Shown: positions 10,283 to 43,622 of the stretch, piece by piece | Numbering within the stretch: the stretch's first letter is position 1 | Layout of the letters: every line of letters begins with the position of its first letter | Source of the DNA: a virus | Reading direction: 5' to 3' (one strand) | DNA: 64,000 nt | IMG/VR virus record: IMGVR_UViG_3300039191_000589 | Span: 46,098 to 110,097 of that record | The notes under the pieces: model-generated | Seen by the model: only the letters and a program-made list of their open reading frames with translations | What the model was told of the DNA's origin: nothing | Database searches by the model: none | Position numbers and translations under genes: made by a program

Positions 10283-10283
10283 T

Positions 10284-13430: not shown

Positions 13431-13434
13431 TTAT

Positions 13435-13779: not shown

Positions 13780-13793
13780 GAGGGGGTGTTTTA

Positions 13794-14135
13794 ATGAAAA
13801 GACTAATAAAAAAAGAGGGTAATAATGTATCTCCAAAAATGCATGAAGAAGTTGAAAAACATATAGAAGATTCTAATAAAGGTAAAAATAGATCAAGAGA
13901 ATTATATTCTCAACAAGAATATATTACAGCCAAAAGAATTTTAGCGGAAATACCTGTTACTCCAACCAATGAAAGGATTTATGAATTAGTTGAAGATATA
14001 AAAAAAGGAGAGTTTAAAGATATTTCTACTGTTGCTCAAGCGAAAAAGAATTGGTCTGATTGGGTAAAAAGAACCACTACAATTTTAAAAGATCGTGGAG
14101 TAATTGGAACACAAGTTAATAATAATATAGAATAA
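13794..14135 (+). CDS. unknown protein, 113 aa, MKRLIKK-type N-terminus
   Basis: ATG with AGAGGGGGTG at 13778-13787. The first residues MKRLIKKEG belong to the recurrent N-terminal motif of this genome. The rest is helical and charged (SRELYSQQEYITAKRILAEI), ending in a helix with WSDWVKRTTTILKDRGVIG. Lies between portal and protease genes; a head-assembly role is positional inference. Confidence 0.65.
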   Translation: MKRLIKKEGNNVSPKMHEEVEKHIEDSNKGKNRSRELYSQQEYITAKRILAEIPVTPTNERIYELVEDIKKGEFKDISTVAQAKKNWSDWVKRTTTILKDRGVIGTQVNNNIE

Positions 14136-14156
14136 TATAAATGGAGGCTGGTTTTT

Positions 14157-14696: not shown

Positions 14697-14702
14697 TTTA
14701 TT

Positions 14703-14735
14703 AATAGAAGGGTTTTTTCCCTTCTATTTTTTTAT
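14703..14735 (+). terminator. rho-independent terminator
   Basis: Perfect 10-base stem (14703-14712 with 14719-14728), T6 loop, T-rich tail; 6 bases after the coiled-coil gene. Confidence 0.85.
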
Positions 14736-14804
14736 TTTATTATATTTTTTTATCTTATGTTTATTTAAAATATGAACAATAATATTATTTAAGGTGGTGA
14801 AGGT

Positions 14805-15728: not shown

Positions 15729-15789
15729 CTTATATTTTATATATTTTATTTTATTTAAATATTAAAGAATTGAAATTAGGAGGAAAAAT

Positions 15790-16341
15790 ATGAAACGGTT
15801 AATAAGAAAAGCATTAATGGATCCTGAAACATTTGAAAATGCGATTGAACAATTAGGTACCCAAGGGAGAGATATTTTAAAAGAAATTGAAGAATTTAAA
15901 TATAAATTAGATCAAGTTACTAGGATTACTCAAAATGATGAACAATTAACTAATAAATTAGAAAATAAAAAAAATGCTGTAGATAAAGCTGCTAATCAAT
16001 TATATACAATTATATTTGATTTGGAAAATTTAGATATAACTCAATTATATCATCAATATGATGAAAATGTAAATGATCAAATGCCTCATAATCCATCTGA
16101 TACACCAGAACAGCCTGGGGATATGAATACTAATGATGAAGAAAATGAACGCGAATATGACTCACCTGATGACACTGAGGATATTGAGACGCCTGATAAT
16201 CCTAATAGTGATAATAATGAAGATGAAAATAATGAAGATAACGAAGATAATGAAAGTGGAGATAATGAAAATAATGATGATGGTGAAGAAGAAAATAATG
16301 AAGAAAATGAAAATAATGAAGAAAATGAAGAAAATAACTAA
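15790..16341 (+). CDS. scaffold-like protein, coiled coil plus very acidic tail
   Basis: ATG with TTAGGAGG ahead. Starts MKRLIRKALMD (recurrent basic motif), continues as a coiled coil (about residues 20-95), then about 75 residues composed almost only of D, E, N, P and S. Position between prohead protease and capsid genes and this charge pattern fit a scaffolding or core protein removed by the protease; sequence alone does not prove it. Confidence 0.6.
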   Translation: MKRLIRKALMDPETFENAIEQLGTQGRDILKEIEEFKYKLDQVTRITQNDEQLTNKLENKKNAVDKAANQLYTIIFDLENLDITQLYHQYDENVNDQMPHNPSDTPEQPGDMNTNDEENEREYDSPDDTEDIETPDNPNSDNNEDENNEDNEDNESGDNENNDDGEEENNEENENNEENEENN

Positions 16342-16370
16342 TATTTTTAAAAGAAAGGAGTATTAAGATT

Positions 16371-17372
16371 ATGAAGAATAAAAAATTGGGTATTAAAGTT
16401 ATTGATAAAATTAATAATGATCAAAAAACATCAACGAAAAAAAATGGATATAAAATAAAACTTTCCAACAATTCTCGGCTAAAGAAAAAGGAAAGTAAAC
16501 AAGAATATGTTGATGATATTCAAACTCAAGTTTCTCCTTTAAGCCCACAAATATCTAAAAATGAACAAAATAAAGATCAAAAAGATAAAGAGGTTAGTAA
16601 GGATGAAATTGAAGAAATTAAAACAAAAAGAAAAGTTAATCAATTAAAACAAGAACAAAATAAAAAGCAATCAGATAAATTAAAAGGTGATTTAGCCGAT
16701 GAATTAATTGATATTGCCGTTATGAAAGATATGATTGCCGAAGAAGATGTTGAAATAGAAAAACAAAAAATAATTGCAATGAATGATGAAGAATATAAGA
16801 AATATAAAGAAAAAGTTGTAAATTATGAAGTTAATGGAGAAGTAACTAGTAAGGAAGATGAGTTTGAAGATAAAGAAGAATTAAGTGAGGCTGAAAAAAT
16901 GCTACAAAGAGTTAAAGGAACTGGAGGAAATATTGGAGATTTTTCTAAAGGTCCATCAAAATCATCAATGCCATCTCCTTCATCAATGCCTCAGCAATCA
17001 CAATCTAATGATAATAATAAAAGATCATTAAGTGAAGCAAAAAATAAAAATTTAAGTAATAGTATTACATTTGATAATCAACAAGCTCCTCCTTCTTTTA
17101 AGGATGGGGTTGCTGCAAATTTATCAAAACAATTTAACCAACAAAACAATCAAACATCTAACCAACAAAGTAATCAAATGTCTAACCAGCAAAAAACTGC
17201 TAATAAACAAACAAAAGAAGCTAAAAAAGAGTTACCTGGATTTGAAGATTTACAGGGATTAACTAAACCATTACAAATCTCTGATAAATCATCATCTAAA
17301 TATCCATCAAATAGTAATATTAAACAATTAATTGAAAATTTAGATTGGACAACAATGTCTAAAGTTCATTAA
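16371..17372 (+). CDS. scaffold-like Lys/Gln-rich protein, 333 aa
   Basis: ATG with AAAGGAG at 16353-16359. The N-terminal 70 residues are Lys-rich; residues about 80-170 are a charged helix (KGDLADELIDIAVMKDMIAE), followed by a Ser/Pro/Gln/Asn low-complexity region with NNQTSNQQSNQMSNQQ, and a conserved-looking end (IKQLIENLDWTTMSKVH). The end resembles that of the protease gene product (LNNLPWT), which may mark shared processing sites. Next to the capsid genes; likely scaffold, head core or minor capsid component. Confidence 0.55.
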   Translation: MKNKKLGIKVIDKINNDQKTSTKKNGYKIKLSNNSRLKKKESKQEYVDDIQTQVSPLSPQISKNEQNKDQKDKEVSKDEIEEIKTKRKVNQLKQEQNKKQSDKLKGDLADELIDIAVMKDMIAEEDVEIEKQKIIAMNDEEYKKYKEKVVNYEVNGEVTSKEDEFEDKEELSEAEKMLQRVKGTGGNIGDFSKGPSKSSMPSPSSMPQQSQSNDNNKRSLSEAKNKNLSNSITFDNQQAPPSFKDGVAANLSKQFNQQNNQTSNQQSNQMSNQQKTANKQTKEAKKELPGFEDLQGLTKPLQISDKSSSKYPSNSNIKQLIENLDWTTMSKVH

Positions 17373-17503
17373 AATTTTAAAAAAACTGTTATATTTAGTT
17401 TTAAAAATAGTATATAATAATTGAAATGATATTTTGTTGCAATAGTTGTAAATCAGCAACATAAAAAAATATAAATATATTTTCATTTGGAGGTGCAAAT
17501 TAA

Positions 17504-18016
17504 ATGGCTGGAGGACACAAAGAGTTTGGACCAACTTATAATACTACTACGTGGGTCCGATTAGGAATTGAAGGAGATTTAAATGGTAATCATCCTGTAG
17601 ATGTTACTGAAGCTCAAAATGTAGATGGAGAATTAGCTGGAAAATTTGCTGCAATAGGTGCTAATGGAGTTAAGCTTGGAACAGATGGTGGAACTGATGT
17701 AGTTGGATTATATAGAGAAGATTTAGGAGATATGATGAGTGCTTCTGAGAAAGCTACTTTTTATTTCCGCGGTGGAGAATATTATGTTTCTGAGCATAGA
17801 TTAGGAACTGCTTTAGCAGATTTCTCTGAAGGTGATGAAATTACTAGTAATGCTAATGGAGAAATTATTCCAGTTGGACAATCTGCTGCTGCAACACCTA
17901 AAGTACTTGGTACTGTTGTTCACGCTGGCGAATATGATTCTGGTAATATGTATGAACATGTTGCACCAGGCAATTTAGAAGGCGGAAGTTATTTAGGCTT
18001 TATTATGCATGTTTAA
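17504..18016 (+). CDS. capsid decoration-type protein
   Basis: ATG with TGGAGGTG at 17489-17496. 170 residues, Gly/Ala-rich and beta-type, with far fewer Asn/Lys than its neighbours, as expected of a highly expressed virion protein. It contains DMMSASEKATFYFRGGEYY and ends YLGFIMHV. Small beta proteins directly upstream of the major capsid gene are usually decoration or stabilising proteins; the call rests on position and composition. A hairpin GTTGC...GCAAC at 17437-17461 lies in the leader. Confidence 0.6.
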   Translation: MAGGHKEFGPTYNTTTWVRLGIEGDLNGNHPVDVTEAQNVDGELAGKFAAIGANGVKLGTDGGTDVVGLYREDLGDMMSASEKATFYFRGGEYYVSEHRLGTALADFSEGDEITSNANGEIIPVGQSAAATPKVLGTVVHAGEYDSGNMYEHVAPGNLEGGSYLGFIMHV

Positions 18017-18065
18017 TCAAACAAAATTATATTAAAATAATGAAAATCTTTTGGAGGTGCAATAA

Positions 18066-19004
18066 ATGAATCTTGACAAAACTGCATTAACGAATAGTAA
18101 TGCATTTAGTAATATAGCTAATGGAGATGGTGGTGCTGCTCAAGGTGGCGGCGAAGGAATGTCGGATGAACAAAAAGAATATTTAATTGCAAAGGCGTTA
18201 GAAACTGAAGAAGGACGAAGTGCTTTAGCACAAGCAATGGCTAATCCAATTAGAACTTCTTTGGATTATCAAGGTGTAGGAAGAAAATTATTAGTGGTAG
18301 ATCCATTACCACAAGGTGCACTACCTGTTTATGATAAAGATGTAGATGCAAAAGCATTTACAATTAGTAAACGTGGTAAAGCTCCTGATCAAATTATTGA
18401 AGGAGACAGAATTCAAGTACCAACTTTTGAAGTTGTTTCTTATCCACAAGTTAGATTTAGTCAAGTTAAAGAAAGACGATTTAATGTTATTGATCGTGCT
18501 CAACAACGTGCTAAATCTGATATTATGGCTGTTGAAGATGAAAACATCTTTAATTTAATTGATTCTGCAGCTACTTCTGTTAATCCTAAAACAGTTTCAA
18601 CAGGTGGATTAACAAGAGACGCTTTAACTCAAGCATTTAAAGAAATTGAAAAGCATGATTTAGTAGTTACTAAGATTGTAATGAATGCTACTACATTTGC
18701 TGATATTAGAGCTTGGGGACGAGACGAATTTGATCCAGTTACTCAACATGAAGTATTACAAACTGGTTTATTCGGACATATCTGGACTGCTGATATTTTA
18801 ATTAGTAAGAAAGTTCCTCAAGATACAGTTTACGTATTAGCTGATCCTGAATTTGTTGGGGTAATGCCTATTCGTCAAGATATTCAAGTTATTCCTGCTG
18901 ATAAACCTGAAGAATTACGACTTGGTTGGGTTATTTATGAGGAAATTGGATTATCTGTTGTTAATGGTATGGCTGTTGCAAAGATTGAAATAACTAATAC
19001 TTAA
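18066..19004 (+). CDS. major capsid protein (HK97-fold type)
   Basis: ATG with TTGGAGGTGC ahead. 312 residues. After an N-terminal arm with a Gly/Ala-rich stretch, RTSLDYQGVGRKLLVVDPLP begins the fold. GDRIQVPTFEVVSYPQVRFS (about residues 118-138) is the E-loop/P-domain strand area, RAQQRAKSDIMAVEDENIFN (about 145-165) the long spine helix, and the end (RLGWVIYEEIGLSVVNGMAV) the last beta strands, a layout typical of phage capsid subunits. Codons are better balanced than in neighbours, consistent with high expression. Preceded by the decoration-type gene. Confidence 0.85.
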   Translation: MNLDKTALTNSNAFSNIANGDGGAAQGGGEGMSDEQKEYLIAKALETEEGRSALAQAMANPIRTSLDYQGVGRKLLVVDPLPQGALPVYDKDVDAKAFTISKRGKAPDQIIEGDRIQVPTFEVVSYPQVRFSQVKERRFNVIDRAQQRAKSDIMAVEDENIFNLIDSAATSVNPKTVSTGGLTRDALTQAFKEIEKHDLVVTKIVMNATTFADIRAWGRDEFDPVTQHEVLQTGLFGHIWTADILISKKVPQDTVYVLADPEFVGVMPIRQDIQVIPADKPEELRLGWVIYEEIGLSVVNGMAVAKIEITNT

Positions 19005-19074
19005 TAAATAATTATTATATTTTAAAATTATATTATATCGGATTAATATTTATATTATATATTATATTATATCT

Positions 19075-19102
19075 AAAGGATGGGGGTTATACCTCATCCT
19101 TT
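19075..19102 (+). terminator. hairpin between capsid gene and next gene
   Basis: Arms 19075-19085 and 19092-19102 pair (AAAGGATG.. with ..CATCCTTT) with a TTATAC-type loop. No T tract follows, so it may terminate weakly or protect the 3' end of the capsid mRNA. Confidence 0.55.
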
Positions 19103-19123
19103 AATTAGTATAGGGGGAGTATA

Positions 19124-19549
19124 ATGAAAAGGTTAATAAAAAAATCATTATTAGATGATGATATTGAACCAGATTTTAATTTTGATCCTGAAAATTTGGA
19201 TTTTAAAGAATACTTAATTAATTTAGATGGGATAATAGAGGATGAAAGAGATAGTGCTATTACTTATATTGATGGTGAGTTTTTTGAAGGGAATAGTCAT
19301 GGATATGGTATTAATCAATATTTTGATAATAATAAAAGTTTTTTAGAAAATTATCAGGAATTAGAAAATAACCATGAAATAGCATATTTAAATAAATTTA
19401 CTCATAATAATAAAATATACATTGTTATTGATTCAAATACATTTGATATGAATTTAAATAAATTACTTAAAGAAATAAAAAAAGAATATACTAATATAGA
19501 AGAAATATATCAAGCAAATTCTAGTAGAACAAACTTTAAAAAATTATAA
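19124..19549 (+). CDS. unknown protein, 141 aa, MKRLIKK-type N-terminus
   Basis: ATG with AGGGGGAG at 19112-19119. Begins MKRLIKKSLLDDD, the recurrent motif. The rest is acidic then alpha/beta (IYIVIDSNTFDMNLNKLLKE). Residues 60-80 contain GEFFEGNSHGYGINQYF. No family recognised; last gene before a terminator and possibly the last of the capsid transcript. Confidence 0.6.
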   Translation: MKRLIKKSLLDDDIEPDFNFDPENLDFKEYLINLDGIIEDERDSAITYIDGEFFEGNSHGYGINQYFDNNKSFLENYQELENNHEIAYLNKFTHNNKIYIVIDSNTFDMNLNKLLKEIKKEYTNIEEIYQANSSRTNFKKL

Positions 19550-19572
19550 TTAAATAAAAATAAAATAATAAA

Positions 19573-19602
19573 AAATGACCACTTACATAGGTGGTTATTT
19601 TT
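19573..19602 (+). terminator. rho-independent terminator
   Basis: Stem around CCAC-TTACATA-GTGG, extended with A/T pairs, ending in TTATTTTTTATTTTT; 24 bases after the preceding stop. Confidence 0.75.
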
Positions 19603-19751
19603 TATTTTTAATGGTATTATTAATTTTAATATGTTAATATTTAAGTTATATTTAATATTTGAAAAAGAAAATTAAATAAATAGAATATTTTTTTTTATTA
19701 TTCTATATGTAAAAGAGTTAAAAATTCTTAAAAAGGAGGGAATAAAATTAA

Positions 19752-20807
19752 ATGAGATTAGTATCCATTAATTCTTTAAAACCAGATATGGAACTGGCTG
19801 AGCCTATCAAGAGTAATGGTAGGAGGTTATTAAGTGCTGGATGTAGTAATTTAAATAGATATAAAGATAGACTGGAAAATTTAGGAATACATTATGTTTA
19901 TATTGATGATGAAATATCAAAAGATATTGAAGTTAATAGTGTTATAAATAATAAAACTAAAGATGAAAGTAAAAAAATGATAAAAGAAACTTTTAAAAAT
20001 GTTTCTATTGGTAAAAAAATGGATAGCCAAGCTGTAAAAGATGGAGTTACAAATATGGTAAAAGATATATTCAATAATGATGAGGTTTTAGCTAATCTAA
20101 TTGATCTTAAAAATGATAATGATTATACTTTTGGACATTCAATTAATGTAGGAGCTATTTCATTAGTAATTGGAAAGGCATTAGGATATAATCGTAAAAA
20201 ACTAATTAAATTAGGTACAGGTGCTTGTTTACATGATATAGGGAAAACCAAAATTCCTGATGAGATATTAAATAAACCAGGTAAATTAACTGATAAAGAA
20301 TATGAAATAATGAAACAACATCCTAAATTAGGATATGATATTTTAAAAAAATATCCTAATACTACAGCAACTTCTTTAGCTGCTGTAGTAGGACATCATG
20401 AAAAAGTAAATGGAAAGGGCTATCCACAAAATAAAGAGGGGAATGACATATATGTATATGGAAGAATAGTGGCGATTGCCGACGTTTTTGACGCATTAAC
20501 TAGTGACAGATGTTATCGTGATCGATGGCCAGTTCATAAAGCATTAGATTTAATTATTTCCGAAGCAGGTGAACACTTTGATTCTAAATTGGTAGAAACT
20601 TTTATTAGGAATGTTGCAGCTTATCCTAATGGAACAATAGTACAATTAAGTAATGGCTATAAAGCAATAGTAAAGAAACAAAATAAAAATTTCCCACAAC
20701 GGCCTATAGTTAAAATATTAGAAGATAACAATGGCAATAAAAAATCTAAAGAGATTAATTTAATGAATGCTTTAGATATAACAATCGTAGATACAAAAAA
20801 TGTATAA
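19752..20807 (+). CDS. HD-GYP domain phosphodiesterase (cyclic di-GMP type)
   Basis: ATG with AAAGGAGGG ahead. 351 residues. The N-terminal part (about 1-60) resembles the short domain often preceding HD-GYP (SLKPDMELAEPI...RRLLSAGC). The HD-GYP domain spans about 120-300: GHSINVGAIS, catalytic LHDIGKTKIPDEIL (HD at 161-162), GHHEKVNGKGYP (HH at 215-216, GYP at 223-225) and VAIADVFDALTSDR. All metal ligands expected of the family are visible. HD-GYP enzymes hydrolyse the second messenger c-di-GMP or related cyclic dinucleotides, in the cytoplasm. Such a complete domain is unusual in a phage. A C-terminal 50 residues form a small beta domain. Confidence 0.9.
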   Translation: MRLVSINSLKPDMELAEPIKSNGRRLLSAGCSNLNRYKDRLENLGIHYVYIDDEISKDIEVNSVINNKTKDESKKMIKETFKNVSIGKKMDSQAVKDGVTNMVKDIFNNDEVLANLIDLKNDNDYTFGHSINVGAISLVIGKALGYNRKKLIKLGTGACLHDIGKTKIPDEILNKPGKLTDKEYEIMKQHPKLGYDILKKYPNTTATSLAAVVGHHEKVNGKGYPQNKEGNDIYVYGRIVAIADVFDALTSDRCYRDRWPVHKALDLIISEAGEHFDSKLVETFIRNVAAYPNGTIVQLSNGYKAIVKKQNKNFPQRPIVKILEDNNGNKKSKEINLMNALDITIVDTKNV

Positions 20808-31702: not shown

Positions 31703-32578
31703 ATGAAGATTCAAAGTTTATCAATTGATGTTCCAGCATCTTGTCCAAATGATTGTCGTTTTTGTGTTGCACATATGCATCGTGAAGATTATATAAATCA
31801 CATTGAAGATAATCATAGATTTAGACATCTTTATAAAGATGACTATAAAAAAAGATTATTATTTGCTAAAGATAATGGATGTAATACTATTGTTCTCACA
31901 GGTAATGGAGAGCCTTTAGCAAATCGTAATTTTCTTCAAAATTTTGCTGAATGGAATTCTAATTTACCTGACCCTTTTTATTGGATAGAATTACAAACAT
32001 CAGGTGTTTTATTAGATGATGAATATTTAAGATTTTTAAGAAATGAAATAGGGGTTAGTACTATTAGTTTATCTTTATCAAGCATTTTTAATAGTGATAA
32101 AAACGCAGAATATAATCAAACACCACAAAAATTAAAAGTTGATATTGATGAAATATGTAGTGAAATTAAAAGGTATGATTTTAATTTAAGGCTTTCACTA
32201 AATATGACTGATGTATATAATAACGTTCCTGTTAAAGAAATTTTTAATAGAGCTAAAGAATTAAAAGCTGATCAAATTACTTTTCGAGAATTATATATAT
32301 CTAATAAAAATAGTAATTGCAAACAAAATAAATGGATAAAAAAACATCGTTGTAATCCTGAAAAAATTGTTGAAATTGAAAAGTATATTGAAGATAATGG
32401 TATTGAATTACAAATTCTTCCTTTTGGTGCTATTAAATATTCTGTTCATAATATATCTACTGTATTAGATATTGATTGTATGTCAACTCAAGTAAAAGAT
32501 GTGGTAAAATATTTAATATTAAGACCTAATGGTAAATTATATAGTTCTTGGGCAGATAAAGGTAGTTTAATTTTTTAA
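31703..32578 (+). CDS. radical SAM superfamily enzyme
   Basis: ATG with AGAGGAGG at 31688-31695. 291 residues. The 4Fe-4S motif CPNDCRFC (C14, C18, C21) is the CxxxCxxC of radical SAM enzymes; it is followed by LTGNGEPLANRNFL (the GGE-type SAM-binding strand, about residues 72-85), and ISLSLSS and ITFRELYIS strands of the barrel. The enzyme cleaves S-adenosylmethionine to make a radical. The substrate cannot be told: a second set of cysteines is limited (C near 211, 221 and 262), and queuosine partners such as QueC/QueD are not in the window. QueE-like or an orphan modification enzyme are options. Confidence 0.85.
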   Translation: MKIQSLSIDVPASCPNDCRFCVAHMHREDYINHIEDNHRFRHLYKDDYKKRLLFAKDNGCNTIVLTGNGEPLANRNFLQNFAEWNSNLPDPFYWIELQTSGVLLDDEYLRFLRNEIGVSTISLSLSSIFNSDKNAEYNQTPQKLKVDIDEICSEIKRYDFNLRLSLNMTDVYNNVPVKEIFNRAKELKADQITFRELYISNKNSNCKQNKWIKKHRCNPEKIVEIEKYIEDNGIELQILPFGAIKYSVHNISTVLDIDCMSTQVKDVVKYLILRPNGKLYSSWADKGSLIF

Positions 32579-34897: not shown

Positions 34898-35293
34898 ATG
34901 AATATTGGTTTTATAGGTTATAGTGCAAGTAAATTTGATAGTGATAAAGCTTATAAAATTATTAGAAATATTTTTAAAAATAAAATTGACCCTTTAGATA
35001 AGGATATAAAAATAGTTTCAGGAGCTACGAATTTAGGAATTCCTAAAATAGTATATGAAATTGCAGATAAAAAAAATTATTATACTATTGGAATAATGTG
35101 TTCTAAGGGGTTTAATTATGAAATGTTTGATGTTAATAAATTATATGTCGAAGGTAATGAATGGGGAGAAGAAAGTGAATTATTTTTAGATACCATCGAT
35201 ATTCTTTTTAAAGTTGGTGGCGGAGAACAATCTAAAAAAGAATTAAATAAAGCTAAAAAAAGAGGAATTAAAACATTTGAATATGATTTATAA
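34898..35293 (+). CDS. SLOG/LOG-like Rossmann protein, 131 aa
   Basis: ATG with AAGGAGTG at 34886-34893. IGFIGYSASKF, IKIVSGATNLGIPKIVYEI, YTIGIMCSKG and DILFKVGGGEQSKKELNKA are the strand-helix elements of SLOG-type nucleotide-binding domains (DprA/LOG/TIR-associated family), which bind NAD, ADP-ribose or similar ligands. Four bases after the ADP-ribosyltransferase-like gene, so the two may act together on NAD-derived molecules. A terminator follows. Confidence 0.65.
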   Translation: MNIGFIGYSASKFDSDKAYKIIRNIFKNKIDPLDKDIKIVSGATNLGIPKIVYEIADKKNYYTIGIMCSKGFNYEMFDVNKLYVEGNEWGEESELFLDTIDILFKVGGGEQSKKELNKAKKRGIKTFEYDL

Positions 35294-35337: not shown

Positions 35338-35366
35338 TTTACAAAATAAAATTTACATGATATAAT
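35338..35366 (+). promoter_or_regulatory. sigma-70 type promoter
   Basis: TTTACA at 35338-35343, a 17-base spacer and TATAAT at 35361-35366, 31 bases before the next start. Same consensus as the promoter at 24372; both would be read early by host polymerase. Confidence 0.8.
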
Positions 35367-35396: not shown

Positions 35397-35852
35397 ATGA
35401 AATTTGATGATTTAATTAATAATGTTATTGAATATCCTAACGAAGAATTATTAAATGGAATTGAAAATAATACTATGTATCGTTATGTATCAAATTTCTT
35501 TGTTAATGGAATAATTAATTATGTAGATATTTATTATGCAATTACTATTAAAAGGTATGTAGGTGGGTGTAAATTAAATTTTGATACTACCATAACTAAT
35601 GAATTGGACCAACAAGGAAGATACCATACTGAATATAATAAATTATCAGATGATGTTTTAGTTTTAGCAGGAACTGAAAATGAATTGTGGATGTTTTGGT
35701 CAGATCGTGATGTAAGTGATTGTAAAATTTTTAGGACTAATAAAGATATTACAAAAGAACAATTTAAGAAATTATTTATTAATTGGATTAAAGAAAAAGG
35801 CTATGATCATTATTATGAATTACCCATTCCAAATGGATGGTGTAAAATATAA
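35397..35852 (+). CDS. unknown protein, 151 aa, from strong host-type promoter
   Basis: ATG with AAAGGAGGAG at 35382-35391. Mixed alpha/beta with RYVSNFFVNGIINYVDIYYA, WMFWSDRDVSDCKIFRTN and ITKEQFKKLFINWIKEKGYD. No family recognised. Single-gene transcript between two terminators with a near-consensus promoter, the usual setting of an early host-takeover or immunity gene. Confidence 0.6.
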   Translation: MKFDDLINNVIEYPNEELLNGIENNTMYRYVSNFFVNGIINYVDIYYAITIKRYVGGCKLNFDTTITNELDQQGRYHTEYNKLSDDVLVLAGTENELWMFWSDRDVSDCKIFRTNKDITKEQFKKLFINWIKEKGYDHYYELPIPNGWCKI

Positions 35853-35892
35853 TATATAATAATAAGGTATAAACTATAAAATAACCATTTAA

Positions 35893-35922
35893 GATCACCC
35901 AATAAAGGGTGGTCTTTTTTTA
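35893..35922 (+). terminator. rho-independent terminator
   Basis: GATCACCC pairs with GGGTGGTC around AATAAA, followed by TTTTTTTATT. Confidence 0.88.
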
Positions 35923-35955
35923 TTATAGGGAGGTTATTTAAAAAAAATTTAAATT

Positions 35956-35976
35956 TTAGTAATAAATTAGTAATAA
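35956..35976. repeat. two 10-base direct repeats upstream of the TubR-like gene
   Basis: TTAGTAATAA occurs at 35956-35965 and again at 35967-35976, one helical turn apart. In type III partition systems TubR binds short repeats (tubC) upstream of tubR; this pair is a candidate, but two copies in AT-rich DNA are weak evidence. Confidence 0.3.
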
Positions 35977-36040
35977 TTAAGAAACAATCGAATAGATATA
36001 TACTAAATAAGGTAAAAAAATGAAAAGAGGTGTTAAAAAA

Positions 36041-36355
36041 GTGTTTTGTGAAGATTGTTTGGTTAATGTTATTATTCCTAAGTTAAAAGATAATGATTTG
36101 CTTATCATGGAATACTTATACAATCATGGAATTACACTTCCCCAAACAAGTAAAATGCAAGATGAAATCATTGAAGAAACTGGATTATCAAATTTTAAAG
36201 GATGGAAAGCTGTATATAGTTTAAGATGTTATAATTTAGTTAAAAAAATTCAAAAAGGCCGTGCAAATTATTATTACCTAACAAAAGATGGTAAAAGAGC
36301 ATTGAGCATTTTTTCTGAGCAAATTGCTAATGAGCATGCTGAACAAGAGGTTTAA
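36041..36355 (+). CDS. tubR (candidate): winged-helix DNA-binding protein, TubR-like
   Basis: I prefer GTG 36041 because AGAGGTG at 36026-36032 is correctly spaced; the upstream ATG 36020 would place this site inside the gene. About 104 residues: helices LLIMEYLYNHG and TSKMQDEIIEETGLSNFKGW, recognition area KAVYSLRCYNLVKKI and a wing KGRANYYYLTKDGKRAL. Size, winged-helix layout and position just before tubZ match TubR, which binds the centromere and represses its operon. CEDC near the start may bind a metal. Confidence 0.65.
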   Translation: MFCEDCLVNVIIPKLKDNDLLIMEYLYNHGITLPQTSKMQDEIIEETGLSNFKGWKAVYSLRCYNLVKKIQKGRANYYYLTKDGKRALSIFSEQIANEHAEQEV

Positions 36356-36393
36356 TAATTTATTTTAATAAATCATTTAAGGAGGAAGATAAT

Positions 36394-37590
36394 ATGCTTA
36401 AATTTGGAATGTTGTGCTTAGGTCAAGGTGGAGGAAATATTGGTGAATATGCTTATACGAAGAACTTTGAGGTGGTAGTAGCTAATACTGCTAAAGTGGA
36501 TTTAAAACAGTTAAAGTATATTCCTGAAAATGATCGTATTCATTTAGGTGGACATGGTGCTGGTAGAGATAGACAAGTTGGTGTTGATGCTTTTATTGAA
36601 AATGCTGAAGAAATTTATGAAAAATGCCTTAATAAGTTTGAAGATTGTGATGCTGTATTTGCCGTTGGAACTGGTGGAGGTGGTACTGGATCAGGAGCAT
36701 TACCTGCAGCACTTGAAATGTTATCTAGTACATTTAAATATGTAGGCTGTATAATTGGATTACCAGCTAAAAATGAAGCACCTAGGGCCCAAATGAACAC
36801 TGTAGAATGCTTTTCAGAATTATCTCAATTAAATGAATTAGGATCAGTATTTATTGTAGATAATGAGGAAACAAAAAAGATGAACCCTAATACTTCACGG
36901 AGAGATATTTATCGACTTACTAATCGCCGACTTATAGATTGTCTTAACGAACTTAATCAATTAACGGATAAAATGTCTTATGTTGACAATTTTGATGCTA
37001 ATGATTTATTAAGTATTATTCAAGAACGTGGCTATACTCATATCACTAAAACTAGTTATTATCCTACCAATAGTGAAAATAAATATAATATTTCTGAGAA
37101 AATTAGAAAAAGTTGGGAAAAAAGCTATCAACCTAAATTTGATCTTAGCACTGTTGTAAAAGGAGCTTTAATTGGGATAATCCCTGAAGAAATATCTATT
37201 GAAGTTGAAAGTGATTTAATCTTTAAGGATAATGGTCTCCCTTATGATTTCAAAGATATATATTTTCGTCCTAATCCTAATGAATTAGAAAAAAAGGCTG
37301 GCAAATCTAAAAATACCTTTTATACTTTATTGTCTGGATTAAAGTTTCCTCAGTCTAGATTGGATCAAATTAAAAATGATATTAATAAGGTTGAAGATAA
37401 GTTAGTTAATAATTATAAAAATTCAGTAAACCAAAAAATTAAAAGTCAAAGTTATAATAGTAAATTTTCCCAAAGTGGATCCCCAATGTCTCATAAATTA
37501 AACAATTTAAGATCAAATAATAATAATGATGATGGAAAAAAGAAAAAAATGAACGTAATGGATCAACTATCAAAATATCGTGAAAAATAA
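36394..37590 (+). CDS. tubZ: TubZ-like tubulin/FtsZ-family GTPase (plasmid/phage partition)
   Basis: ATG with AAGGAGGAAG ahead. 398 residues. GQGGGNIGEYAY (residues about 9-20) is the first phosphate loop, GGGGTGSG (94-101) the tubulin signature, GLPAKNEAPRAQMNTVECFSELSQ gives later nucleotide-pocket helices, followed by VFIVDNEE and helix NRRLIDCLNELNQLTDK. The end is a basic, Asn-rich tail (GKKKKMNVMDQLSKYREK), as in TubZ where the tail contacts TubR. FtsZ differs by its acidic conserved tail. TubZ filaments treadmill and move the replicon in low-copy plasmids and phage-plasmids such as c-st. Confidence 0.85.
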   Translation: MLKFGMLCLGQGGGNIGEYAYTKNFEVVVANTAKVDLKQLKYIPENDRIHLGGHGAGRDRQVGVDAFIENAEEIYEKCLNKFEDCDAVFAVGTGGGGTGSGALPAALEMLSSTFKYVGCIIGLPAKNEAPRAQMNTVECFSELSQLNELGSVFIVDNEETKKMNPNTSRRDIYRLTNRRLIDCLNELNQLTDKMSYVDNFDANDLLSIIQERGYTHITKTSYYPTNSENKYNISEKIRKSWEKSYQPKFDLSTVVKGALIGIIPEEISIEVESDLIFKDNGLPYDFKDIYFRPNPNELEKKAGKSKNTFYTLLSGLKFPQSRLDQIKNDINKVEDKLVNNYKNSVNQKIKSQSYNSKFSQSGSPMSHKLNNLRSNNNNDDGKKKKMNVMDQLSKYREK

Positions 37591-37595
37591 AGTAG

Positions 37596-37622
37596 AAAAG
37601 GGGGTATAATCCCCCTTTTTAC
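37596..37622 (+). terminator. rho-independent terminator after tubZ
   Basis: AAAAGGGGG pairs with CCCCCTTTT around TATAAT, 5 bases after the tubZ stop. Confidence 0.88.
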
Positions 37623-37674
37623 TTAATAAGTATTAAATAAATATTGGCTAAAAATTAACAACGGAGGTTGTATT

Positions 37675-38091
37675 ATGAATCAGAAAAAAATAATTATAAT
37701 TTTATTATTATTGTGTTTATTTGTAAATTGTTCAATTGCATTAGGTAATAATGGAAATAATAAAAAAACTAATAATAAACAACAATCTAAAATCAGTATT
37801 CCTGATTCTGTTCCAGATGAATATATTGATGAATATATTAGACAGTCTAAAGCCCTTAGAAAAGCAATTGATTATCTTGATTTTATTGTTGAGTTAATTC
37901 GTTTAGCTGCCGCTGCTTATTTAGGACTACATGTAACAATTATAGGTTATCAAATTTACCGTTTAGATAATGGAATAGAACATTCTAAACAAAATTTTAA
38001 AAAAGCTGCTTATGGCTTATTCTTTGTATTTTGGGGCCAAGCATTGGCAAATTGGTTTATGGCAAAATTATTTGATATACTTTTTGGATAG
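37675..38091 (+). CDS. VirB2/TrbC-type pilin-like membrane protein
   Basis: ATG with GGAGGTTG ahead. 138 residues. An N-terminal signal peptide (KKIIIILLLLCLFVNCSIALG), a short polar segment, then two hydrophobic helices (about residues 68-93 with LIRLAAAAYLGLHVTIIGYQ, and about 108-138 with YGLFFVFWGQALANWFMAKL). Size and layout equal type IV secretion pilin subunits. It is first in a run of membrane proteins and ATPases of conjugation type, which supports the call. Confidence 0.6.
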   Translation: MNQKKIIIILLLLCLFVNCSIALGNNGNNKKTNNKQQSKISIPDSVPDEYIDEYIRQSKALRKAIDYLDFIVELIRLAAAAYLGLHVTIIGYQIYRLDNGIEHSKQNFKKAAYGLFFVFWGQALANWFMAKLFDILFG

Positions 38092-38103
38092 GAGGCGGCA
38101 GTA

Positions 38104-38256
38104 ATGCTTAACAATTGGGATGAGTTATTATATGAAATCTCAACTATTCTTTTTGGATTATGTTGTGGGCTAATGGGGTTTGTTGTAACTTATTATTTAT
38201 TAGGTTGGATAGGTGATTTTATCATAAAAGTAATTTTAAGGGGGTTACTAACATGA
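38104..38256 (+). CDS. 50-aa membrane protein in type IV secretion block
   Basis: ATG with AGGAGGCGG at 38090-38098. One hydrophobic helix (FGLCCGLMGFVVTYYLLGW) flanked by charged ends. The stop overlaps the next ATG (ATGA), so the two are coupled. Too short for a family call. Confidence 0.6.
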   Translation: MLNNWDELLYEISTILFGLCCGLMGFVVTYYLLGWIGDFIIKVILRGLLT

Positions 38257-38378
38257 TTTTTAATATTTTAAGAATTACTTTCTCTTTTACAGTGGGAGTT
38301 TATTGTTTTCAATTTGCAATTAAAAAATTTCATAATTTTTTTAGAAGTAATAGGGATGAACACTATAAAATTTATTAA
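38253..38378 (+). CDS. 41-aa membrane protein in type IV secretion block
   Basis: ATG at 38253 overlapping the stop of the previous gene; ribosome site AAGGGGG at 38238-38244. An amphipathic to hydrophobic helix (ILRITFSFTVGVYCFQFAI) then a basic tail. Followed 15 bases later by the VirB6-like gene. Confidence 0.55.
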   Translation: MIFNILRITFSFTVGVYCFQFAIKKFHNFFRSNRDEHYKIY

Positions 38379-38393
38379 AGAGAGGGGTTAAAT

Positions 38394-39302
38394 ATGCCTG
38401 ATAAAGCATTAAAATTATTAGAAAAAATATCAGGAGTGTTAGATAAATTTTGGACATTTATTACTAACATTCCTGAAAAAGCTTATGATTCTTTAGCTTA
38501 TATTATGAAAGAAATGGTTGATTTATTAATTAAATTTCCTAGAATTACATCATTTCCTGAAATTATTGAAGTGTGGCAAGTAGTATTAGTATTATCACTA
38601 TCTATGTTAGGATTAGTATTTATTTATATAGCAGTGCGTAATAGAATATCTTTGAATAGTAATATTATTAGATCAATTGAAATCAAACAAGTTATTGCTA
38701 GAACTTTTTATATGGGCTTTTTCATTATTTTGAGTAGAACCTTTGTAGATTGGCTTATTATGTTAAACAATGTATTAATTAATGTATTAATGCATCATTT
38801 TGATATTCGAAAAGTAATAGATCACATTGGTAATTCTCATTTTGGGAAAGATATAATAGCAACCGCAATAATAGGGTATCAAATATACCTAGTTGTGTGG
38901 ATTATGATTCAATATTGGTTAAGAGTTACGGAAGTATTAGTGATGTATGTTTCTAGCCCTGTTATGTATTTATTATGGGTTAATCCAGAGTGGGGAGGGT
39001 ACTTATCTAGCTGGTTAAAACGAATTAGCTCATTAATTTTTACACAATTAGCTCAAATACTAATATTAATTATTCATGGGCATTTAGTTTTTAAATTTTT
39101 TGTTTCAGGATCAATTTCAAGTTTAGCTTTAGGGGTAGCTGGATTAATTTTAATGAAAAAAACTCCAGCCTTTTTTAAAATGTTTATTGCCCAAACAAAT
39201 TCATTGCAAATTATGACGGGGACTTATGATAAAATTTCTAATTCTAATACTGTTAAAAAAATTAAAAATAAAATGTCAGGGGGTAATGATGACGATGAGT
39301 AA
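38394..39302 (+). CDS. VirB6/TrbL-like polytopic membrane protein
   Basis: ATG with AGAGAGGGG at 38379-38387. 302 residues with about six to seven hydrophobic helices, including VVLVLSLSMLGLVFIYIAV, TFYMGFFIILSRTFVDWLIM and VVWIMIQYWLRVTEVLVMYV, a YLLWVNPEWGGYLSSWLKR loop and an acidic cytoplasmic tail (GGNDDDE). This is the architecture of the Gram-positive conjugation channel protein (VirB6/TrbL). It sits directly ahead of VirB3- and VirB4-like genes in the normal order. Confidence 0.65.
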   Translation: MPDKALKLLEKISGVLDKFWTFITNIPEKAYDSLAYIMKEMVDLLIKFPRITSFPEIIEVWQVVLVLSLSMLGLVFIYIAVRNRISLNSNIIRSIEIKQVIARTFYMGFFIILSRTFVDWLIMLNNVLINVLMHHFDIRKVIDHIGNSHFGKDIIATAIIGYQIYLVVWIMIQYWLRVTEVLVMYVSSPVMYLLWVNPEWGGYLSSWLKRISSLIFTQLAQILILIIHGHLVFKFFVSGSISSLALGVAGLILMKKTPAFFKMFIAQTNSLQIMTGTYDKISNSNTVKKIKNKMSGGNDDDE

Positions 39303-39588
39303 AGATAAATTATCAACTTGGATTCCGCGAAATTTAAATGAGGAAGATAAAATTGATTTAGGTTTTGGTATTAAATTAACTTGGTCCAATTTACCTTTAA
39401 TTCTAGGAGGAGGAACAATGGGGTATCTTTTATCTACAAAATACAATGATTTCTTAATGAAAACAGCAATTATTTTAATGTGTGTAGTTCCTCCTTATGT
39501 ATTTTGGAAAATAGCTCTTAATGAACAGAATCCAATTGATGTAATGTGGAATATGATAATTTTTATAAGAAAATTATTAAGGGGGTAA
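39289..39588 (+). CDS. VirB3/PrgI-like membrane protein
   Basis: Several ATGs (39286, 39289, 39295) follow AGGGGG (39278-39283); 39289 or 39295 fits best. About 100 residues: TWIPRNLNEEDKIDLGFGIK, then two hydrophobic helices around LPLILGGGTMGYLLS and FLMKTAIILMCVVPPYVFWK, the paired-helix form of VirB3/PrgI proteins that always precede VirB4. Overlaps the VirB6-like gene and ends 4 bases before virB4. Confidence 0.65.
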   Translation: MTMSKDKLSTWIPRNLNEEDKIDLGFGIKLTWSNLPLILGGGTMGYLLSTKYNDFLMKTAIILMCVVPPYVFWKIALNEQNPIDVMWNMIIFIRKLLRG

Positions 39589-39592
39589 TAAT

Positions 39593-41284
39593 ATGGTGAC
39601 GGTTAATACTAATATTCATAATGGTAATCAAATTGGTATAATAGAAATTGAACCAACTAATATTTTAATGAAAGATGAAGATTATAAAATTCAAATAATG
39701 GAAAATTTCAAAAAACTAGTAAATTCAATTAATACTTCAATTCAAATATTGTGTAGCAGTGATAATTTTAGTAGTAATAAATTTAGTATTGAAGGGTATG
39801 ACGAATATAATACTTTAATTAATAATAAAATTAATAACGTTGTAAAAAAGAAATTTAAAATAATAGTAAATAATGATGATGAGAGTATATTGAGAAATAA
39901 TTTAAAGACTATTAAAAGACATTTAAAATCTTGTAGCATACAATGTAGCGATTATAAAATTACTACTTATGATAATATTTGTAGTGATGAATTAAATGTG
40001 GACTATATGCAAATTAATGATCAATATGTTAAAACGTTTTATGTAACTGATTATCCTCATAGTTGTTCTTTTGGGTGGTTAAAAGATATATATAATAGTG
40101 AATTAAATGTAGATATTAGTTTCTTTATTCATCCTGTATCAAAATCTGATGCTGAAGAATATTTAACAAAAAAATTAAATCAAAACACCTCTAATTCTTC
40201 ATTAGAAGATGAAAAAGATGTAGTAAATGATAAATATGATGAACGAATTAATAGTGCCATTAAAATGAGAAAACAATTAAGAAAAAACAAATGTAAATTC
40301 TTTTTTACATCCTTTTATATAACATTAAAGGCTGATAATATCAACCAATTAAACCGCGAGAGTGAATATCTGAGGACATTAATGTCAGGTTTAAATGTTA
40401 ATATTAAAAATAGTTATTTACGCCAAGAGGATGCATATAAGTGCACTAGAGCCTTTGGGAGAGATGTATTAGAAAAATATTATAATTTAACTACTAAACA
40501 ATTAGGGTGCTTTTTTCCATTTACCAATTCAAATATTATTGATAAGAAAGGAATATTGGTTGGGGATAATATTGTGAACTCCAGTTTGGTTTTTTTAGAT
40601 CCTTTTAAATACGATTCTTATTTAATGTTTATCATTGGAAAAGTAGGTGGGGGAAAGAGTTATTTATCAAAATTATTATGTTTAAGATTACTACAAAAAG
40701 GAGTAAAAATTGATATTTTTGATAAAGAGGGGGAATATTTACAATTAAAAGAACTAACCAATTCACCAAATTTACGGGTTCATAATTATAATAATTATTC
40801 TGATTACCTTCCTATGTTAGAAAGATATGTGTATGATATGGATAATAATAATGAATTACAAAAAAGGATGTTATTTATAGATGAATTTTGGCAATTTGTT
40901 GATAACACTAATAAAGAATTTTTAGAGTATGTTAAATATATTACTCTTACTTCACGAAAAAAACATCAAGCATTATGTGCTATTAGCCAAGAAATAGAAC
41001 ATTTATTAGAAACCCCAGAAACTTATACTATTATAAAACAAGCAAGTATTAAAGCTCTTATGAAGTCAGAACCAAGTGAGGCTAGAATGATAAAAGAGGA
41101 ATTAAATTTAACTGAGTCTGAGGTTAATTTTTTAATTTCCGCTGATAATGAAGGTTTATTATTAGCTGATAATAAACAGGTTCAATTTAAAGCTTTATCT
41201 ACAGATAAAGAAGATAAAATTATTACTACTGATCCTTCACAAATTTTACAATTAAGAGAGGAGGGTAAACGTGGGATTATTTAA
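39593..41284 (+). CDS. virB4: VirB4/TraC-family type IV secretion ATPase
   Basis: ATG with AAGGGGG at 39579-39585. 563 residues. The N-terminal domain (about 1-330) carries a long Asn/Lys-rich part; the ATPase part has IGKVGGGKSYLSKLL (Walker A 349-356), IDIFDKEGEYLQL, RMLFIDEFWQFV (Walker B near 426-433), TSRKKHQALCAISQE and the end motif VNFLISADNEGLLLA. This is the standard VirB4 C-terminal half. It energises pilus or channel assembly. It is somewhat shorter than usual VirB4 (about 600-800). Overlaps the next gene by 14 bases. Confidence 0.9.
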   Translation: MVTVNTNIHNGNQIGIIEIEPTNILMKDEDYKIQIMENFKKLVNSINTSIQILCSSDNFSSNKFSIEGYDEYNTLINNKINNVVKKKFKIIVNNDDESILRNNLKTIKRHLKSCSIQCSDYKITTYDNICSDELNVDYMQINDQYVKTFYVTDYPHSCSFGWLKDIYNSELNVDISFFIHPVSKSDAEEYLTKKLNQNTSNSSLEDEKDVVNDKYDERINSAIKMRKQLRKNKCKFFFTSFYITLKADNINQLNRESEYLRTLMSGLNVNIKNSYLRQEDAYKCTRAFGRDVLEKYYNLTTKQLGCFFPFTNSNIIDKKGILVGDNIVNSSLVFLDPFKYDSYLMFIIGKVGGGKSYLSKLLCLRLLQKGVKIDIFDKEGEYLQLKELTNSPNLRVHNYNNYSDYLPMLERYVYDMDNNNELQKRMLFIDEFWQFVDNTNKEFLEYVKYITLTSRKKHQALCAISQEIEHLLETPETYTIIKQASIKALMKSEPSEARMIKEELNLTESEVNFLISADNEGLLLADNKQVQFKALSTDKEDKIITTDPSQILQLREEGKRGII

Positions 41285-43586
41285 TAATTTTAAACAACAA
41301 AAAGGAGAAAAATTTAATTCAGAGTGTTTTAAAATTAATTTTGATATTAACCGAAAATCAATTGAAGAATACCAAATGATGTTAAGTAATATCTATGGTT
41401 TACAGTTTATTAATAAACATGAATATACCCCTAAATTTACTTTTGGAATTATTGTTGAAGAAGATCAATATGATTTTTATGCTGTTTGTCCTGAGGAATA
41501 TAGTAATATCATTAAAGAACAACATAAGATAATACACCCACATATTAGATATTCTTCTTTTAATGACCCTCTGAAACAATTTGAAAATTATTTAAGTAAT
41601 GGTAAAATGCATTATATTAGTGGATACAGGTTAATGTTAAATGATAATACTGATAAATCGATACAAACACCTAACAAATCAAGATTTTTATTAAATATTA
41701 TATCAAATATGATGGATGATAAATATAATGATAAAAGTATTTTTGAGATTACTTTTAAACCTATAAATAATAACAATAATATTAATAATAATAAAATATT
41801 AAATACATTAGATACAACTGTAAAAGGATTAAGTTATGCTATGGATTTTTTCTTTAATAGTAATTTAAGTGATCCTTATAAGAATAAAGAGAAAACAAAG
41901 ATTAAAGATAATAAAAAAGATAACAGCAATAAATTTACTGCAAAATTTAATGTTGATATAAAAATTATATGTAAATCTAAAAGTAAACAAAGATCTTTAG
42001 ATAAAGTTAAAAGTGTTAGTGCATCATTTTCTAATCTTAATAAAAATTCTAAATTTAATGCTATTAAGTTAAAACATGATGATATTATTAATCGTCAATA
42101 TAATCATAAAAATATATTAACTGTTGAAGAAATTTCTCAATTTATGCATTTGCCTCATGATATAGGTGAAGAAAATTATACTAGACTATATGATGATAGA
42201 GTACCAAGCAAAGGAATAGTATATGGTGATAGCAATGGTAAAGATGTAGCTTTTCCAATGGAAAAAATTAGCCCTGAAAATTATAGTAAAAAGTATAAAG
42301 AAATAGAAAAATATATTGATGATTTTTCTAAACCATTAGTAATTACAGGGCGTCAAGGTAATGGTAAATCAGAATGGATAGTAAATTTAGCAATAGCTGT
42401 AGCAAAATGTGGGATTTCAGTAATCATAGTAGACCCTAAAGTAGATACTCAAAAAAGATTTATAGAGAGTTTACCTAAAAGTGAAATGGATAGGTTAGAT
42501 TATTTAAATTATGGTGATTTAAGGCATCCTCCAGCTATGAATTTATTTCGACAAAGAAAAGATAATGATCCTATAGAAAATTCATTAATTACATCATCTT
42601 TTATTGCTTTAATGAAAAAACACTCACGCCACTGGGGATTTAAAATGCAAAGAATGCTCCAAAGAGCTTGTGAGGCTGTATTATTAAATCAAACAAGTAC
42701 ATTAAATGAATTAGATTTACTTTTAAATGATCCATTATTTAGAGAGCATATTATAGAAGTAATGGAAGGTAAACTAAATGATAATGATCAAAAAAATAAA
42801 GCCCATATAAGAAAATTATTAAGATATTGGAAAAAATTTCATAATGATGATCAAAAGGATATTGATAAAAAAATCGAACCAGCTATGAATGTTATTGGAC
42901 CATTTATAGATAATCAAATTATTAAGACAATAGTTGGCCAAGAAGAATGTTATGATTTTAGAGAAGCTGCTGATAATGGGAGAATAACTATTGTAAATAT
43001 TCCAGAAGGTTCGTTAGAAGAAAATACTAAAATATTATCATCAATTATCAATAAAAGAATTTGGTTAGATATGCAATCACGAGCTGATAGTGAATTAAAG
43101 GATCGTTATCCAACATTTTGGGTTATGGATGAAGCTCATGAAATTTTAGATGAGGAATTTACTGGTATATTAACAAAGGCACGTGCATATCGATTAGGAG
43201 TGGCATTAATTACACAAGGATTAACTAATTTTAGAAGTAGGGGAATGGATAATATGAAAGACTTAATAGAAACTAATTGTCAAAAGAAAATAACTTTTAA
43301 TATATCATCGTCTGAAAGTAGGCAATTAGCTGAAGAATTTGCTCCTTTGACTCTTAAGGATTTATCTAATTGTCCTAAATATCATTTTTATGCTAAAACA
43401 TTTTTAAAATCAGGGGAAATATCTGACCCATTTTTTGTTCACGCACCTTTACCAGCTAACAAAGAAAGGGATTATAATAAGTTTATTGAAAATCATAAAA
43501 AGGGGAGAAAAACAATGGAGGAAATTGAAATAGAGATTGAAGAGAGGATGGATCATATTAGAACAATGAATAAATTAAAGCAATAA
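41271..43586 (+). CDS. VirD4/TraG-like (HerA/FtsK-type) coupling ATPase
   Basis: GTG at 41271 with AGGAGGG at 41260-41266. 771 residues. The N-terminal 340 residues are variable. The motor domain has ITGRQGNGKSEWIVNLAIAV (Walker A about 360-367), SVIIVDPKVDTQKRF, TFWVMDEAHEILDEEFTGIL (Walker B DEAH about 620-623), LGVALITQGLTNFR and KKITFNISSSESRQLAEEF. This is the pattern of conjugative coupling proteins of Gram-positive elements, which hand DNA to the secretion channel. No N-terminal membrane helix is obvious, so HerA-like or packaging functions remain options. Confidence 0.8.
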   Translation: MGLFNNFKQQKGEKFNSECFKINFDINRKSIEEYQMMLSNIYGLQFINKHEYTPKFTFGIIVEEDQYDFYAVCPEEYSNIIKEQHKIIHPHIRYSSFNDPLKQFENYLSNGKMHYISGYRLMLNDNTDKSIQTPNKSRFLLNIISNMMDDKYNDKSIFEITFKPINNNNNINNNKILNTLDTTVKGLSYAMDFFFNSNLSDPYKNKEKTKIKDNKKDNSNKFTAKFNVDIKIICKSKSKQRSLDKVKSVSASFSNLNKNSKFNAIKLKHDDIINRQYNHKNILTVEEISQFMHLPHDIGEENYTRLYDDRVPSKGIVYGDSNGKDVAFPMEKISPENYSKKYKEIEKYIDDFSKPLVITGRQGNGKSEWIVNLAIAVAKCGISVIIVDPKVDTQKRFIESLPKSEMDRLDYLNYGDLRHPPAMNLFRQRKDNDPIENSLITSSFIALMKKHSRHWGFKMQRMLQRACEAVLLNQTSTLNELDLLLNDPLFREHIIEVMEGKLNDNDQKNKAHIRKLLRYWKKFHNDDQKDIDKKIEPAMNVIGPFIDNQIIKTIVGQEECYDFREAADNGRITIVNIPEGSLEENTKILSSIINKRIWLDMQSRADSELKDRYPTFWVMDEAHEILDEEFTGILTKARAYRLGVALITQGLTNFRSRGMDNMKDLIETNCQKKITFNISSSESRQLAEEFAPLTLKDLSNCPKYHFYAKTFLKSGEISDPFFVHAPLPANKERDYNKFIENHKKGRKTMEEIEIEIEERMDHIRTMNKLKQ

Positions 43587-43590
43587 TTAG

Positions 43591-43622
43591 TAACCAGCTT
43601 AGTGGCTGGTTATTTTTTTTTT
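43591..43622 (+). terminator. rho-independent terminator ending the type IV secretion block
   Basis: TAACCAGC pairs with GCTGGTTA around a TTAGTG loop, followed by TTTTTTTTTT. Confidence 0.9.

Follow-up and report, generated by a model that had tools for sequence, protein, structure and literature searches.

A putative minimal type IV secretion gene block in phage-G-like giant myoviruses

Introduction

Type IV secretion systems (T4SSs) of the mating pair formation class FATA (MPF-FATA), found on Gram-positive plasmids and integrative and conjugative elements (ICEs), encode VirB4, a PrgI-type VirB3, a TrbL-type VirB6, and a VirD4-like ATPase in one operon (e.g., CD1110 and CD1115; Mbov_0397). 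Reduced and repurposed relatives of such machines have been described. Mycoplasma ICEs encode a minimal conjugation apparatus without VirB1 and VirB8 (PMC12857230), Patescibacteria encode co-opted MPF-FATA-like systems that bear pilins and mostly lack relaxases (PMC12102498), and the archaeal Ced and Ted systems, which comprise homologs of VirB2, VirB6, and VirB4, import DNA (PMC9905601). Here, we describe a block of seven genes that is best read as a minimal Gram-positive-type (MPF-FATA-like) T4SS with a VirB2 pilin and a TraD/VirD4-like ATPase, and that is located within the genome of a tailed phage. The block lies in a 64,000-nucleotide stretch (hereafter, the window) that corresponds to bases 46098–110097 of the linear, 110,097-base IMG/VR record IMGVR_UViG_3300039191_000589.

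Results

Composition of the Block

The block occupies window positions 37675–43586, where seven genes on the + strand are bounded by two hairpins:

37596–37619, hairpin with T-tract between TubZ and the block, terminator-like on both strands
37675–38091, + strand, VirB2-type pilin (T4SS_pilin/TrbC), 138 aa, hydrophobic with a signal peptide
38104–38256, + strand, 50-aa single-helix membrane protein
38253–38378, + strand, 41-aa hydrophobic protein
38394–39302, + strand, VirB6/TrbL-like polytopic membrane protein, 302 aa
39295–39588, + strand, VirB3/PrgI-like small membrane protein, ~97 aa
39593–41284, + strand, VirB4 ATPase, 563 aa, with GKVGGGKS and DEF motifs
41271–43586, + strand, TraD/VirD4-like coupling-type ATPase, 771 aa, with GRQGNGKS and DEAH motifs
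43589–43614, + strand, terminator-like hairpin 3' of the block

The gene content, motifs, overlaps, and single-strand arrangement reported in the initial annotation were found as described, as was its terminator after the block. The two tiny genes share 4 bases (the start at 38253 lies over the preceding stop), the VirB3-like gene overlaps the VirB6-like gene (its open reading frame (ORF) is listed from 39226, with 39295 the likeliest start), and the coupling ATPase gene overlaps the VirB4 gene by 14 bases.

The profile searches that the annotation proposed were clear for VirB4 and modest for the second ATPase, whereas the VirB2, VirB6, and VirB3 proteins of the window, being too divergent, were unmatched in a Pfam search. 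Their identities are assigned because syntenic orthologs in related phages match the corresponding families. Orthologs of the pilin matched T4SS_pilin with E-values of 3.7e-6 (phage G, over the cut-off), 1.1e-5, and 1.5e-4, and three VirB6 orthologs (28–33% identity to the window protein) matched TrbL_4 at 5.6e-12 to 5.2e-11, over the cut-off. Among the VirB3 orthologs (22–26% identity), two matched PrgI at 2.4e-5 and 2.1e-4, below the Pfam cut-off; VirB3 of the window and of phage G are assigned by synteny and alignment only. The 50-aa protein shares its position and a CG-x-x-GF-x-x-TY motif with phage G gp151 and a counterpart in a 175-kb contig (G002), and the 41-aa protein corresponds in position to gp152 of phage G and to a 49-aa ORF of that contig.

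The window VirB4 matched NCBIfam models at 6.5e-47 and 4.5e-41, the best being the mycoplasma ICE family (Mbov_0397, 6.5e-47), and the Pfam TraG P-loop family at 2.4e-10; these scores are below the curated cut-offs of the individual equivalog models. A two-row VirB4 profile matched the VirB4 structure 4ag5 in the PDB at 1.2e-20, and the Walker A and DEF motifs are kept in all four block-bearing phages. The coupling ATPase is 38–41% identical to its orthologs. Its matches to TIGR03743 (TraD) are of modest significance (2.6e-6 for the window and 1.5e-9 for phage G), and a CD1115 VirD4-like model matched the phage G protein at 5.4e-8. Together with the operon neighbors of its homolog, these profiles support its assignment as a VirD4/type IV coupling protein of the kind found in conjugative elements. 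A structure prediction from a four-row alignment was too poor to use (predicted local distance difference test (pLDDT), 39.6). Scans of GTDB genomes with both ATPases revealed no close bacterial relative.

The VirB4 family corresponds to PHROG family 2666 (phrog_2666), which is labeled ‘terminase large subunit’. We reject this label, as the family is VirB4 and a separate, true terminase is present; the mislabeling misguides annotation. Distant VirB4 segments were also observed in 20 short, unannotated ‘Bacteriophage sp.’ records from human fecal contigs (MT83xxxx), which are perhaps mislabeled conjugative elements.

Conservation and Inheritance of the Block

Relatives of the block were located by tblastn and profile searches. 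The same gene order was identified in phage G (gp150–gp156; NC_023719, Donellivirus gee, a phage of Bacillus/Lysinibacillus), in the 175-kb contig, and in a 156-kb contig (G003), for which only a single tiny gene instead of two was recognized. Block genes in these relatives overlap or mostly near-touch, and their products are 18–41% identical to those of the window. Phage G shares the seven-gene order and 26–41% identity across the five main proteins, with the same tubulin 5' of the block and the same acidic/fiber-like genes 3' of it. It differs in having extra genes between the tubulin and the block, including gp146, a PF13814 protein. In the phage G record, gp155 is labeled ‘type IV secretory pathway protein; VirB-like’ and gp156 ‘MsbA-like’.

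The block thus lies between the same phage genes in the genome of an isolate and in two independent contigs, which answers the question, raised in the initial annotation, of whether related genomes keep it, and which upholds its claim of a T4SS block inside a tailed-phage genome. Pairwise identities of block proteins order the genome pairs much as do those of TubZ and the helicase, with the phage G–G002 pair highest and pairs including the window lowest. The block has therefore been inherited vertically, with the phage, in phage-G-like giant myoviruses. Four independent sequences, a vertical pattern of divergence, and shared phage neighbors of the block in the three other genomes exclude both a chimeric assembly and a host ICE adjacent to a prophage; nothing was found in favor of this explanation, and we consider it scarcely credible.

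A Tubulin-Type Partition Pair Precedes the Block

Two genes directly 5' of the block encode a TubR-TubZ pair:

36020–36355, + strand, TubR-like winged-helix DNA-binding protein, directly 5' of TubZ
36394–37590, + strand, TubZ/FtsZ-type tubulin GTPase (Pfam Tubulin, 6.4e-14), 39–45% identical to orthologs in phage G, G002, and G003

TubR orthologs precede TubZ in phage G (gp137–gp138) and in both contigs, and a profile of three of them matched TubR of phage c-st (4asn) at 1.4e-6. Both proteins of a TubZRC type III partition system are therefore present, and the locus resembles TubZRC of phage c-st and pBtoxis in having TubR before TubZ and a TubR that matches 4asn. It differs in its linkage to a T4SS and in having no iterated repeats by tubR: tubC-type repeats sought beside tubR in the four phages yielded only short, chance-like pairs, and a centromere elsewhere was not sought.

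A Relaxase-Family Gene and a Wall Peptidase Beside the Block in Relatives

The initial annotation noted no relaxase and no VirB8 or VirB1 homolog. For the 110-kb record this holds for the relaxase. In the three relatives, however, a divergent PF13814 (Replic_Relax) gene was identified just 5' of the block (phage G gp146, 4.8e-26; G002, 4.6e-26; G003, 2.3e-23). No match to the PF03432 relaxase was detected in any of the four block-bearing phages. A survey of elements in Streptococcus equates PF13814 with the MOBC (MobC) relaxases (PMC5357655). Relaxases of this class are relatives of PD-(D/E)XK nucleases, and the member that has been studied carries an N-terminal winged helix (PMC12857230). The phage PF13814 proteins have an N-terminal helix-turn-helix match (2d1h, 4.6e-4) and conserved R-P/T-D (R-x-D), F-E-I-D, T-E, and K residues, which are compatible with PD-(D/E)XK MOBC relaxases.

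No TcpC/VirB8 match was detected in the four genomes, although Pfam might miss a divergent form. A cell wall peptidase does adjoin the block in the 175-kb contig, which may qualify the claim regarding VirB1; this M23 peptidase with a hydrophobic N-terminus (1.7e-30) was found in that contig only among the four phages.

Several other genes were observed near the block in relatives. A sigma-70-family factor gene is located directly 3' of the block in the 175-kb contig (L008 14677–15450). In three phages, the pilin gene is preceded by one for a putative phage metallopeptidase (phage G gp149; L008 7274–7723; L009 7184–7606), with PF18894 matched by the L009 protein, and L009 holds a second similar-looking ORF at 12–491.

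Comparison With Described Systems

The block encodes VirB4, a neighboring VirB3/PrgI-like protein, and a VirB6/TrbL-like protein, as do MPF-FATA systems, and shares with them the arrangement of these genes and a VirD4-like gene in one operon. It differs from them in being located in a tailed phage and in its short VirB4 (563 aa), which scores far below the family curated cut-offs; moreover, no VirB8 was found, and the candidate relaxase is of MOBC type only and in relatives only. We class the block as MPF-FATA-like, not as a full member, because VirB8/TcpC was not detected. The initial annotation linked the order B2-B6-B3-B4 and a coupling ATPase to Gram-positive conjugation machines; a VirB2 pilin, however, is atypical of Firmicute conjugation machines (PMC12102498).

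Mycoplasma ICEs have a minimal set and the absence of VirB8 in common with the phage block. Patescibacterial T4SSs share the MPF-FATA-like core and VirB2 pilin, with the relaxase often absent, but are chromosomal, have pilin arrays, and are not viral. Ced and Ted share the reduced VirB2/VirB4/VirB6 set; however, they import DNA, have no recognized relaxase, and give a weaker VirB4 match to the phages. An operon with the same kinds of partners was identified in an unrelated element, a plasmid of Embleya sp. NBC_00896 (NZ_CP108778, 274386–284702), which encodes PrgI, VirB4, VirD4-like, replication-relaxation, and NlpC/P60 proteins in a row. Its VirD4-like homolog is directly 3' of the VirB4 homolog and is annotated as a conjugative DNA transfer protein. 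This operon differs in its location on a plasmid, in its 25–29% identity, in having its relaxase and hydrolase downstream, and in having no recognized pilin.

T4SS genes were also observed within or beside flagellar/chemotaxis genes on megaplasmids of the Bacillus group, in Pontibacillus (L105 3802–13355) and in Priestia megaterium pFDU301A (L104). The Pontibacillus T4SS includes pilins and an M23 protein, and the P. megaterium copies are apparently broken into several ORFs.

Phages That Lack the Block

A capsid-based search yielded 33 related contigs. Two sister phages, G004 and G007, retain the genes on either side but not the stretch that encodes TubR, TubZ, and the block. In G004, a homolog of window gene 34898–35293 is followed by 60 bases and then by homologs of the genes at 43745, 44180, 45204, and 45830, such that the whole 35397–43586 stretch is cleanly gone; G007 is similar. 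The rest of these two records yielded no match to tubulin or VirB4. The tubulin searches had positives; the two ATPase searches lacked a positive control of their own, but their alignments detected the three known carriers in other searches. Within IMG/VR, this tubulin occurs in three records, and these are also the three that encode VirB4.

In the capsid tree, bearers and lackers of the block are split by one branch (99/99), and the window is nearest the lackers (91/97). G010 was counted here as a bearer because it shares a sample with G002 and probably belongs to one genome with it, although G010 itself has no coverage of the block. Because the window sits nearest the lackers, the tree favors clean loss in the lacker lineage over several gains, with the root unfixed.

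Promoters and the Timing of Expression

An early-type promoter, TTTACA-N14-TGnTATAAT, occurs 87 times in phage G (both strands), including 68 times on the + strand at 360–480 kb; in the record that contains the window, its copies are concentrated within the initial 20 kb. This strand-specific class (AAAACAGTTTACA...TGATATAAT) marks a probable early region in each (phage G, 360–480 kb; record, bases 1–20000). We infer that the class is early from its sigma-70-like sequence and its position. The copy at 35338 in the window serves another gene:

35338–35366, + strand, early-type promoter TTTACA-N14-TGATATAAT, 5' of a 151-aa gene (35397–35852), not of the block
35891–35916, terminator of the 151-aa gene

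In none of the four block-bearing phages does the block have an early-type promoter in front of it. This weakly suggests that the block is expressed after the early phase, and it disfavors a role in entry. We could define no shared late-promoter motif; the early class alone was clear.

The Host Genome of the Block

The remaining features of the window and record are as follows (window coordinates, except for the terminase):

Record 41959–43611, terminase large subunit, 61% identical to phage G gene 1 (Pfam Terminase_6N, 2.8e-6)
10380–13430, portal, 63% identical to phage G (phrog_16240, 8.6e-143)
14805–15728, head protease, 57% identical to phage G
18066–19004, HK97 major capsid protein, 86% identical to phage G (NCBIfam, 3.2e-66)
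22302 and 24441 (starts), helicases
33753 (start), thymidine kinase
45830 onward, fiber-like genes

Capsid, portal, and terminase are of the phage G type and in conserved order, and the record is a piece of a phage-G-like myovirus (a Donellivirus relative) within the Caudoviricetes. The record ends among the fiber-like genes; the tail module is absent from it, and most of the genome is probably absent too. The phage flanks of the block were as first described, with portal, protease, and capsid genes on one side and fiber-like genes on the other, and the guanine-plus-cytosine profile has no step around the block. The 1016-aa portal ORF looks fused, as phage G and G010 have two adjacent genes (portal and the next protein) in its place. 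A radical SAM protein (31703–32578; 1.1e-13) was unmatched in the three block-bearing relatives.

Discussion

Export of DNA to touching cells is, tentatively, the most likely function of the block, because the coupling ATPase and the MOBC-type partner belong to DNA-transfer operons; both the substrate and the direction are predictions. Under such a mechanism, the apparatus would probably be made after the early phase, with VirB6, VirB3, and VirB2 forming a VirB4-powered channel and short pilus in the membrane of the infected cell. The coupling ATPase would then feed DNA to touching cells. This substrate would be phage DNA with a nick made by the MOBC-type Replic_Relax protein, whose gene lies beside the block in relatives, and a peptidase would open the wall locally. 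Conjugation in Escherichia coli transfers tens of kb per minute, such that a 500-kb genome could be transferred within one infection cycle, an argument that concerns feasibility only. Two routes of transmission, by virions and by contact transfer of a nicked genome that TubRZ positions or maintains, might even allow the phage to reach neighbors that lack its receptor and would make a tailed phage a conjugative element as well, but such a dual life cycle is doubtful.

Several observations weigh against DNA export. The coupling ATPase of the window lacks a hydrophobic segment that is present in the three others, and relaxase, M23 peptidase, and VirB8 were not found in the 110-kb record, which is a fragment without the tail region. 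The nuclease fold of gp146 is unconfirmed (model pLDDT, 63; best Foldseek E-value, 2.8e-3), and its match to the FokI nuclease (4e-3) is suggestive only. The PF13814 gene may instead serve replication: SPO1-like phages encode a homolog (gp27.3, 29–30% identity) and none matched VirB4, which argues that the gene can exist without a T4SS. Furthermore, the sister phages G004 and G007 manage without the block. To our knowledge, only a virulent lifestyle is known for phage G, and transfer has never been observed.

In a possible alternative, the block is a co-opted secretion or pilus machine that exports phage proteins or displays a pilus, with the relaxase-family gene serving replication; proposed uses include blocking other phages, aggregating cells, and delivering proteins into neighbors. 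Protein export or surface exclusion ranks close behind DNA export. The co-opted systems of Patescibacteria provide a precedent (PMC12102498), and this alternative is consistent with the lack of a detected relaxase in the record and with the retention of PF13814 by SPO1-like phages without a VirB4 match. It would also account for the low identity of block proteins (18–41%, versus 86% for the capsid), since faster divergence is expected of envelope-facing parts; however, the helicase and TubZ are also just 39–50% identical to those of the window, indicating that this divergence is not specific to the block. The presence of a MOBC-type gene at the block in three of four phages and of a TraD/VirD4-like partner of DNA-transfer operons argues against co-option, as does an operon without an obvious secreted effector. 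A role in fiber display, also suggested initially, gained no particular support other than adjacency, and the fiber-side neighbor genes also occur without the block.

Import of DNA from neighbors or debris for nucleotides, repair, or recombination, as in Ced and Ted, is unlikely. Those systems are composed of VirB2, VirB6, and VirB4 homologs (PMC9905601), and the phage VirB4s match CedB weakly (2e-8, 2e-7, and 3e-12), but these scores are far below those for the CD1110 and Mbov_0397 conjugation families, and the TraD/VirD4-like ATPase and MOBC-type gene indicate export. It is quite improbable that the apparatus aids entry by pulling in or sheltering the rest of the long genome after the tail delivers its first part. 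A genome of ~500 kb and a DNA pump of a membrane-spanning type would fit such a role, but the lack of early-type promoters before the block in all four phages makes first expression unlikely, and sister phages with closely related capsids lack the block. A packaging or segregation pump that acts with TubRZ would be consistent with the phrog_2666 label and with the adjacency of block and TubRZ; nevertheless, the true terminase large subunit, the assignment of the family to VirB4, and a pilin and VirB6 that packaging would not need make this highly improbable.

No published account of a phage-encoded block was found in a literature search whose coverage excluded subscription papers and preprints, and the block goes unmentioned in the passages of the phage G tail paper that were consulted. 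T4SSs themselves are known, but a vertically inherited T4SS in tailed phages appears to be undescribed, save for a one-line note on gp155. Besides releasing virions, such phages may pass DNA or proteins across the envelope of infected cells, and phage G is an isolated phage in which the machine is testable. If the block is functional, infection by a tailed virus includes the assembly of a conjugation-type channel. This would represent an unrecognized, receptor-independent route for the spread of viruses or genes and would make the boundary between viruses and conjugative elements less sharp.

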